A stretch of DNA of 59,094 bases from contig JALFPC010000108.1 of NCBI GenBank assembly GCA_022782305.1, forward strand, positions 1-59,094, written 5' to 3'. A model generated the notes under the pieces. It was not told where the DNA came from, made no database searches, and saw only the letters and a list, made by a program, of their open reading frames with translations. The position numbers and the translations under genes are program-made. The DNA is from Prevotella sp. Its GTDB lineage: Bacteria; Bacteroidota; Bacteroidia; Bacteroidales; Bacteroidaceae. Of the stretch, positions 9,369 to 12,278 are shown piece after piece; position 1 is the first letter of the stretch, and every line of letters begins with the position of its first letter.

Positions 9369-10028
9369 TTAACTCGTTATGCGTCCGTTTTCCACCCTAA
9401 TTAGTCTCATATTGTATTGCATGTGGTTAACTATGGGGTTGTGAGTAACCATCACCACGGTGCTTTGCTGTCTCATGTTGTTGAGCAGTTCCATCATCTG
9501 TGTCTCTGCTGTATTGTCCATATATGTGGAAGGTTCGTCAAGCACGATGAGTTGCGGATTTGCCACCAGTGCCCTTGAGAGCAACACCCTTTGTAGTTGT
9601 CCGCCGCTGAGTTGTCCTATATGCTGGTTTGCTAAGTTGTCCACTCCCATCTGCCTCATGGTTTCCATCACCTGTTGCCTATCGTTGTGGTTGCATCCGC
9701 CCCAGAGTCGTCGGCATTGTGTGAGTCCTCCCATCACTGTGTCGAAAGCAGAGATGGGAAACTGCTTGTCTATATTGTTGTATTGCGGCAGATACCCTAT
9801 GTTGAGATTCTTCACAGGCATGTTGTTTTGCCACATCAGCACCCGTCCCTCTATGGGTTTGATCAGTCCCATCATGGTGCGTATCATTGTGGTTTTGCCA
9901 GATCCGTTATGTCCCGTCACGAGCAGGAAGTCGTGCTCATGTATGTCTAAACATATATCCATGATTTTGGCCTTGCCGTTGTATCCTGCCGATACGTGGT
10001 CGAGAGAGAGTATCTTATTGGTTGTCAT
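9369..10028 (-). CDS. Metal (Zn/Mn-type) ABC transporter ATP-binding protein, ZnuC-like
   Basis: GHNGSGKTTMIRTMMG Walker A, LSGGQLQRVLLSRALVANPQLIVLDEPS signature and Walker B; adjacent to a ZnuA-like gene. Confidence 0.88.
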   Translation of the reverse strand: MTTNKILSLDHVSAGYNGKAKIMDICLDIHEHDFLLVTGHNGSGKTTMIRTMMGLIKPIEGRVLMWQNNMPVKNLNIGYLPQYNNIDKQFPISAFDTVMGGLTQCRRLWGGCNHNDRQQVMETMRQMGVDNLANQHIGQLSGGQLQRVLLSRALVANPQLIVLDEPSTYMDNTAETQMMELLNNMRQQSTVVMVTHNPIVNHMQYNMRLIRVENGRITS

Positions 10029-10060
10029 ATTTTTGCGTTTATGCCTGCCTATGCTGTTGG

Positions 10061-11305
10061 TTATCGGTTATACCTATAAATTTCGTCGGCAATGGTTTTC
10101 ATTTCCGTCACCCAGTCATAGTTGAGCGGGTTTATATATACTATGTGTGCCTGCATGGCATTGGCCACGTTTTGGGCATGCCTTTGGTCAAATTCCTTTT
10201 GCACCATCACCAGTTTGATTCCTGCTTTCTTAGCCTCGTTGATGGTTTTCATCTGGCTTTCGGGAGTGGGTTCCTTTCCCTCCTGTTCTATTGCTATTTG
10301 CCTGAGGTTATAGTCGTGTGCGAAATAGGTGAGTGATGGATGGAAGATTACAAATGCCCTATTGGTAAGTGTTTTTGTTTTGCTGCGAATATATTCGTCG
10401 GTGGCTTTGAAAATCTCTATGAGCGAATCTTTTCTATGTTTGAAATAGAGCGAGTCTTTTGAGTCTATTCTCACCACCTCTTGATAGATTTTTTCTGCTA
10501 TGTTCATCATGTTTCGTGGCGATGTCCAAGTGTGTGGATCCTGCCCGTCTGCCACAGTCATGACTTCTGCTATGGTGGTAGATGGAATGTTTTGTTTTAT
10601 CCTTCCTTTCCATGCTTTTTCGAATCCCAGTTGTCCGGCCATCACTATCAGTGGGCATTTTTCAAGTTGTGCCATCTGCCTTGTTGTTGGTTCGTATGTT
10701 TCTGGGTTGTTGCCTTTGGTCACTATGGTCATCACCTCCATGCGCTCTCCGCATATTCCCTCTGCCACATACCTGAGTGGTTCTATGCTCACTGCAATGA
10801 TTTGTCTATCATTGCCGTTAGTGGTAGCCTTGTCATGAGAGCATGATGAGAGGTTTACCACTATGCTGGTGCCGAAGAGCAGGATGAGATATCGTACCAC
10901 CTTACCTATGGTAACGCTGAGCAGCACTATGGTCCATCGTGCCCTCATCAGTCCGAGTGTCACTGTAATGGCACTGCCCATGAGCGGTACTACGGCCAGC
11001 AGTCCCATCCATGCACCCTTACCTTCCATAAAACGCATAGTTTTGTCTATGTCTTCTTGCTTGATATGCAGATACTTATGTATCCATTTCACCTTGCCCA
11101 GGCGTCCCATGCAATAGTTAAACATGCTGCCTGCCACATTGCCTATGCTACCCCATACAAAAAGTCTCACGGGGTCTGCACCCACGGCCAGTAGACCGAG
11201 CATGACAGCCTCGCTTGGGAATGGGAAGAAGCTGCCGGCAAGAAAAGCCGACACAAGCATGCCATACATGCCATAGTTTACAAGTATATCTATGATTGCG
11301 TCCAT
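10061..11305 (-). CDS. Fusion: N-terminal YqaA/DedA-type membrane protein plus C-terminal zinc/manganese-type substrate-binding protein (ZnuA-like)
   Basis: One uninterrupted frame: AGSFFPFPSEAVMLGLLA...NVAGSMFNYCMGRLG, then ISIEPLRYVAEGICGERMEVMTIVTKGNNPETYEPT...DPHTWTSPRN...FVIFHPSLTYFAHDY...EGKEPTPESQMK. Confidence 0.85.
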   Translation of the reverse strand: MDAIIDILVNYGMYGMLVSAFLAGSFFPFPSEAVMLGLLAVGADPVRLFVWGSIGNVAGSMFNYCMGRLGKVKWIHKYLHIKQEDIDKTMRFMEGKGAWMGLLAVVPLMGSAITVTLGLMRARWTIVLLSVTIGKVVRYLILLFGTSIVVNLSSCSHDKATTNGNDRQIIAVSIEPLRYVAEGICGERMEVMTIVTKGNNPETYEPTTRQMAQLEKCPLIVMAGQLGFEKAWKGRIKQNIPSTTIAEVMTVADGQDPHTWTSPRNMMNIAEKIYQEVVRIDSKDSLYFKHRKDSLIEIFKATDEYIRSKTKTLTNRAFVIFHPSLTYFAHDYNLRQIAIEQEGKEPTPESQMKTINEAKKAGIKLVMVQKEFDQRHAQNVANAMQAHIVYINPLNYDWVTEMKTIADEIYRYNR

Positions 11306-11348
11306 ATTTGAAATGCTGAGTGATTGTTATGCCTAATAATGCAAGATG

Positions 11349-12278
11349 TTACAGCAGCCACAAGTTAATTTGTGCCAATACGATCAGTGCCACCGTTATC
11401 ATGATGAAAGCCATGTTGGTTATCTTGGTATTTGTGAGCGCAATGAAATGCCCCATGAGTGGACTGATGCATATTATCATGAAGATGAGAATGTGGTCGA
11501 AGGCTATTGTGTGTATGACCATGACCACCATTGCTGCAATCCACATGGTGATAAATGAATAGAAGAGCATGCGCGTTTTTATTTTGTCGTTAACCGATGA
11601 GCGCACAAAATGTATGCTGCCTATTATGCCCAAGGTCACGGTGGCAGCCAGGGCAGTCCATCGCCTTATATCTATGCCTTCAATGTCTGCCACATGTGTA
11701 AAGTCTACCACAGTGTATAGTTGCTGCCATGTATGATGCACATCTCCTGTTGCTATCAGCACTGGCAGTGCAAACCAGTATGGCATGGTCAGTCCCATGA
11801 GTGATGCCAGGAATGTGCGTATACTCCATGATCTCAGGCATGCAGCCATTACCAGCCAGTATGCTACTGCCATCCACAGCATCTGCGGCGATACCATGGT
11901 GGCCAGCCCCAGTCCGAGGAATGAGTAGAAAGACCATCCTGCAGCTTTTGGGTCCTGATAGGTATGAAACAATGTGGTTAGCGATACCATTATGCACACG
12001 GCAGTGAGGCCCACGGGTTGGTCTACAAAGAGGAAGAGAGTGCAAACCGTGAGCATGAGCATTGAGCACGACACCATTCGGCTGAATATGCGTATGAGTG
12101 CATTAGTATTGTTGAGTTCCACCATAAGGTATACCGCCACCACATAGCACGCCAACGGCAACCAGTGCCACTCTTGCGTTTTGATATCCATGGCCACCCA
12201 CATCAGCATTGCGTAGATGGTAGTGACGGGCAGTGCAAACCGGCTGCCCGCCACTTTATTCTGCAGTCGTTTAGACAT
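11349..12278 (-). CDS. Multi-pass membrane protein of unknown function
   Basis: About 9-10 hydrophobic segments; sits immediately downstream of purD in the same direction. Confidence 0.75.
   Translation of the reverse strand: MSKRLQNKVAGSRFALPVTTIYAMLMWVAMDIKTQEWHWLPLACYVVAVYLMVELNNTNALIRIFSRMVSCSMLMLTVCTLFLFVDQPVGLTAVCIMVSLTTLFHTYQDPKAAGWSFYSFLGLGLATMVSPQMLWMAVAYWLVMAACLRSWSIRTFLASLMGLTMPYWFALPVLIATGDVHHTWQQLYTVVDFTHVADIEGIDIRRWTALAATVTLGIIGSIHFVRSSVNDKIKTRMLFYSFITMWIAAMVVMVIHTIAFDHILIFMIICISPLMGHFIALTNTKITNMAFIMITVALIVLAQINLWLL

Follow-up and report, generated by a model that had tools for sequence, protein, structure and literature searches.

The locus lies in a 59,094-nucleotide stretch of Prevotella sp. 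DNA (contig JALFPC010000108.1; the whole stretch is called the window throughout) and contains a gene in which a DedA-type membrane domain and a ZnuA-type metal-binding domain share one reading frame (Table 1). The frame had been proposed in an earlier interpretation made without database searches (the sequence-only reading), and is borne out by 414 open codons and by Pfam, which assigns VTT_dom to the first part of the protein (PF09335, 36.7 bits, cut-off 33.9) and ZnuA to the second (PF01297, 160.4 bits, cut-off 29). The best NCBIfam match of the neighboring ATPase is of the AztA/MntA class and falls under the equivalog cut-off of that model, and the 309-residue membrane protein has no match in Pfam or NCBIfam. 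The gene of the ABC-3 permease (ZnuB) lies on a different contig of this genome and adjoins aroA in the relatives inspected. The gene order purD, 309-residue protein, dedA::znuA, usually znuC, and a protein of about 1120 residues is kept in the window (9369-12278) and at three further loci (L123-L125); at two of these (L123 and L124) the ORF filter used found no znuC of at least 150 residues behind the fusion.

Table 1. Features of the DedA::ZnuA locus, with positions in the window.
Feature	Position	Strand	Basis or remark
ZnuC-like ABC ATPase gene, directly downstream	9369..10028	(-)	Pfam ABC_tran
DedA::ZnuA fusion gene	10061..11305	(-)	414 aa + stop, ATG at 11305
ZnuA-type metal-binding domain, aa 170-409	10079..10798	(-)	Pfam PF01297; PDB 1pq4/2ov1 by sequence and fold
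Lipobox L152-S-S-C155, with predicted Lgt modification at Cys155 and LspA cut in front of it	10841..10852	(-)	Cys in 19/19 aligned fusions, 21/22 overall
Last DedA helix, aa 124-153, putatively doubling as lipoprotein signal peptide	10847..10936	(-)	AlphaFold2, alignment, matrix score
VTT/DedA domain, aa 30-144, COG1238/YqaA type	10874..11218	(-)	Pfam PF09335
GTG (V136), internal start proposed earlier	10898..10900	(-)	not conserved among fusions
ATG (M120), only possible internal start common to all fusions	10946..10948	(-)	also in most standalone DedAs
309-aa membrane protein gene, upstream	11349..12278	(-)	adjoins dedA and purD in relatives

The membrane part carries the hallmarks of COG1238: E32 is invariant in the fusions and residues 98-119 of the window protein contain no Lys or Arg, both features being called by eye in an alignment of 19 fusions against the published description of an acidic first re-entrant tip and few basic residues in the second (PMC10127716). 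COG1238 (YqaA) proteins, which are common in Bacteroidetes, share with it the VTT domain, the length of about 150 residues and the acidic first tip, but 99% of them are reported to be single-domain proteins, whereas here a predicted ZnuA lipoprotein follows in frame (PMC10127716). A YqaA homolog affects indium accumulation (PMC8679861). The best fold match of the ZnuA part was PDB 1pq4 (TM-score of 0.93 relative to the target, 30% identity), and both fold and sequence place it with the ZnuA/AztC/MntC cluster (PDB 1pq4, 2ov1), from which it differs in lacking a separate N-terminal signal peptide and in the first metal ligand. H258 and H322 are invariant, but a Glu (E202, codon at 10700-10702 (-)) occupies the position of the first ligand, giving PETYEP instead of the PHTYEP of 1pq4 and 2ov1. 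The same Glu was found in all 68 fused and unfused loci in which the motif could be located, and the metal preference of these proteins may differ from zinc; in all other respects the ZnuA part is typical of its family. The AlphaFold2 model of the window protein (mean pLDDT 83, pTM 0.63) contains one helix spanning residues 124-153, a low-confidence stretch at 152-164 and then the ZnuA fold.

The joint reads IGKVVRYLILLFGTSIVVNLSSC(155)SHDK (also given as GKVVRYLILLFGTSIVVNLSSC155SHDK), with the Cys155 codon at 10843-10841, and the L-S-S-C lipobox that the sequence-only reading had placed there is present exactly as claimed. In the last DedA helix, K135 and R138 form an n-region and are followed by a hydrophobic stretch; the Cys stands, as in substrates of signal peptidase II, behind a hydrophobic helix with a basic n-region, at residue 155 and behind a full DedA domain rather than in the usual N-terminal signal position. 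The lipobox is present in 21 of 22 fusions, the exception being locus L062. Other fusions are only 44-52% identical to the window protein, and across the 19 aligned fusions no column between L142 and V172 is invariant except Cys155, the residues around it varying within the lipobox rules (LSSC, LFSC, LTSC, LASC, LTAC). The Cys lies at residue 151-155 in the fusions and unfused DedA proteins end at residue 149-154, mostly at 150, so that a cut at the Cys would yield a DedA of roughly native length. In the unfused pairs, ZnuA begins behind the DedA stop with an ATG, a basic n-region, a hydrophobic stretch and a lipobox that belong to it alone, an arrangement that looks ancestral. The fusions have no separate ZnuA start and n-region, and the DedA helix (GKxxRYxxL...) continues straight into the lipobox.

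Junctions were scored with a home-made signal position matrix derived from 88 N-terminal lipoproteins in a related genome (G024). The training set was chosen by a lipobox rule, and the scores therefore measure resemblance to lipoprotein signals, not function. The 19 aligned junctions had a median score of 8.4 (2.2 to 11.3) and the true lipoproteins, left out in turn, one of 8.8. The window junction, at 5.7, scored above every one of 420 non-N-terminal Cys residues of polytopic proteins (maximum 5.6, 95th percentile -5.1). When 1.2 Mb of the same genome (750 ORFs, 87 of them polytopic) were scanned for at least two transmembrane segments followed by a lipobox-type site and a soluble domain of at least 120 residues, the fusion ortholog was the only ORF with such an arrangement. 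By these scores the joint resembles genuine lipoprotein signals and not the Cys residues of ordinary membrane proteins. The proposal that the last DedA helix doubles as a signal peptide is thus well supported by the recurrence of the lipobox in 21 of 22 fusions, by the matrix score and by a modeled helix that ends just before Cys155.

Both domains were found together at 69 loci, 22 fused and 47 unfused. In a set of 60 relatives the open fused frame recurs in five further congeners, and one carries the two genes side by side; among 398 genomes of the genus the fusion is present in 19, and a family-wide draw contributed one more congener (L057) along with two species from a second genus (L060, L062), giving 20 fused congeners, the window included, and two fused species of another genus. 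Three genomes of the genus set (G161, G132, G231) proved to have split genes. A survey of 386 genomes from the phylum (E 1e-95) showed no full-length fusion beyond the family, and a contig scan of named organisms returned distant single-domain relatives only. The gene content of the genomes compared suggests Prevotella-like Bacteroidaceae. On plasmid NZ_OY725942.1 (Bacteroides finegoldii), yqaA (dedA), mnmD and znuA are listed under one match, which suggests that mnmD sits between dedA and znuA there, and several unfused loci (L073, L075, L078) have a gap of 800 bases whose size would fit mnmD. In a tree built from DedA, with the junction excluded, and ZnuA, the fused or unfused state changes eight times (7-9 times in bootstrap trees), at least three changes being forced by well-supported branches; the deep branches are weak, which limits the independence of the fusions, and some of the changes may have been splits. 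A single clade of all fusions was rejected (AU p 9e-54), as was a single clade of the fusions of the genus (AU p 0.004), in a test done after the tree had been looked at. Since the fusions are not monophyletic, the fusion probably arose more than once.

On sequence features, the gene encodes two proteins with a signal-type site between them, as a polyprotein would. We consider it fairly likely that Lgt and LspA process this chain at Cys155 into DedA and a lipidated ZnuA. The product would be inserted as a DedA-type membrane protein with K135 and R138 on the cytoplasmic side of the last helix and the C-terminus in the periplasm, and the ZnuA lipoprotein would use this same helix as its signal peptide. 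Lgt would add diacylglycerol to Cys155 and LspA would cut before it, giving a DedA of 154 residues, close to the usual length, and a ZnuA anchored by its lipid. The freed ZnuA could then work with ZnuC, encoded by the next gene, and with ZnuB, encoded elsewhere, presumably in zinc uptake. The benefit of the arrangement may be a coupled 1:1 production of the two proteins, or the fusion may simply be tolerated.

A second pair of proteins shows a comparable joint. Four genomes (G015, G111, G154, G370), all of which also carry DedA::ZnuA, have ZnuB fused to PorW/SprE. These in-frame fusions lie at L118:679-4413 (-), L119:4080-7799 (+), L173 and L174. Their PorW part matches the NCBIfam model T9SS_PorW_SprE with 791-825 bits, every joint has a hydrophobic helix with a basic n-region together with LSGC or LGGC, and the fused PorW is the only PorW in each of the four genomes. 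Among the best 30 PorW loci of another draw of the wider genus, none had ZnuB in the same frame. The PorW of P. gingivalis is a lipoprotein of the outer membrane and forms a bridge from the translocon to the PorK/N ring; in F. johnsoniae the homologous SprE is likewise located at the outer membrane (PMC8754138). The known PorW/SprE proteins of the type IX secretion system are, like the fused ones by prediction, signal peptidase II lipoproteins of Bacteroidetes; they carry a signal peptide at their own N-terminus and locate to the outer membrane, whereas PorW here stands behind ZnuB with an internal lipobox (PMC8754138). Because PorW acts at the outer membrane it must leave the inner-membrane permease, so that an uncut ZnuB::PorW should not work, and PorW could hardly function in that form.

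Other accounts of the DedA::ZnuA frame were weighed against cleavage at Cys155. An assembly error or frameshift that joined two genes was rejected, its probability being negligible. The sequence-only reading had named separate genes with a stop between them in relatives as the sign of such an error; many relatives do have split genes, which bears out half of that expectation, but 22 species are fused, single-contig genomes (G024 and G016) among them, and the recurrence of the frame with its conserved Cys, together with joints devoid of a separate ZnuA start and n-region, speaks against an artefact. It also appears quite improbable that ZnuA is translated from an internal start (GTG136 or ATG120), with the end of dedA coding its signal peptide and the full-length chain being incidental. 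The GTG pointed out in the sequence-only reading would give MVRYLILLFGTSIVVNLSSC, but it is not conserved in other fusions, and six of these (L006, L008, L037, L042, L046, L047) have no ATG, GTG or TTG 15-30 codons ahead of the Cys. Three fusions (L007, L044, L057) do have a well-placed ATG (MGKFIRYIVL...), and ATG120 occurs in all fusions, 31-36 codons ahead of the Cys (its context in L060 reads LMRSN), which leaves internal initiation some probability. M120 is, however, also present in 30 of 45 unfused DedA proteins, its link with fusion is not significant when relatedness is counted (few independent pairs), and a full-length chain would carry the same lipobox helix anyway.

The chain could also stay uncut, with ZnuA tethered to DedA via the last helix much as the substrate-binding domains of GlnPQ or OpuA are tethered, and perhaps with a lipidated Cys155 as an extra anchor. 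The disordered linker of 12-15 residues that the AlphaFold2 model places behind the helix would suit such a tether, and so would locus L062 (genome G426), where the lipobox is lost while both domains and the open fused frame are intact; no second ZnuA was found in this genome, which is 83% complete. The joint there is GIVSLIPDRPIP, against GIVNFFSSCSVQ in the sister locus L060 (also given as GIVSLIPDRPIPTSTSP against GIVNFFSSCSVQTQSVP), reading SLIPDRPIP where the sister keeps FSSC, and its VTT domain scores 29.2 bits, under the PF09335 cut-off of 33.9. L062 is thus a natural candidate for an uncut, unlipidated form, indicating that such a form has been tolerated at least once and that cutting is not needed in every lineage. 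As a general account a tether nevertheless seems unlikely: it needs no lipobox, but a full one stands at the native DedA end in 21 of 22 fusions, and its retention there across probably independent events favors cleavage. The parallel ZnuB::PorW, if left uncut, would strand the sole PorW at the inner membrane. Of the two outcomes between which the sequence-only reading had left the choice, the cut is therefore the better supported, and a tether is likely only in the L062 lineage.

Cleavage at an internal lipobox would extend known kinds of processing. In GlnPQ and OpuA a binding domain is likewise joined covalently to a membrane domain, but there it is the transporter's own permease and the two stay joined (PMC8025302, PMC11065425); here the partner is DedA, ZnuB is encoded by a separate gene, and the joint has a lipobox. 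The pattern of one gene giving two proteins, with a transmembrane helix acting as a signal peptide inside a longer chain, is shared with polyproteins cut by signal peptidases. Signal peptidase cuts at internal signal helices in the cytochrome b/c1 protein of Bradyrhizobium (fbcH) and in viral polyproteins; the enzymes there are signal peptidase I or the signal peptidase complex, whereas type II cleavage with lipidation is proposed here. The substrates for which Lgt and LspA are known carry the signal peptide at the N-terminus. In a search of mostly open literature we found no paper on a DedA-ZnuA fusion and no report of internal lipoboxes or of type II signal peptidase acting at such a joint. 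A polyprotein cut by signal peptidase is of a known kind, and for the type II version at an internal lipobox we found no published description. Taking both fusions together, the balance tips slightly toward a broader proposal, namely that in some Bacteroidota type II signal peptidase acts as a protease on polyproteins (DedA::ZnuA, fused several times, and ZnuB::PorW, in four species), which would be lipidated and cut at the internal lipobox, the last helix of the first protein or else an extra signal helix doing duty for both parts.

The relatives offer a natural series of separate genes, genes fused with a lipobox and genes fused without one, which makes the question directly testable, and ZnuB::PorW adds another example whose uncut form should not function. 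If processing at Cys155 takes place, the second half of a membrane-protein gene could code for a lipoprotein, prediction tools of the standard type, which view N-termini only, would overlook it, and inhibitors of LspA would keep both halves from maturing.
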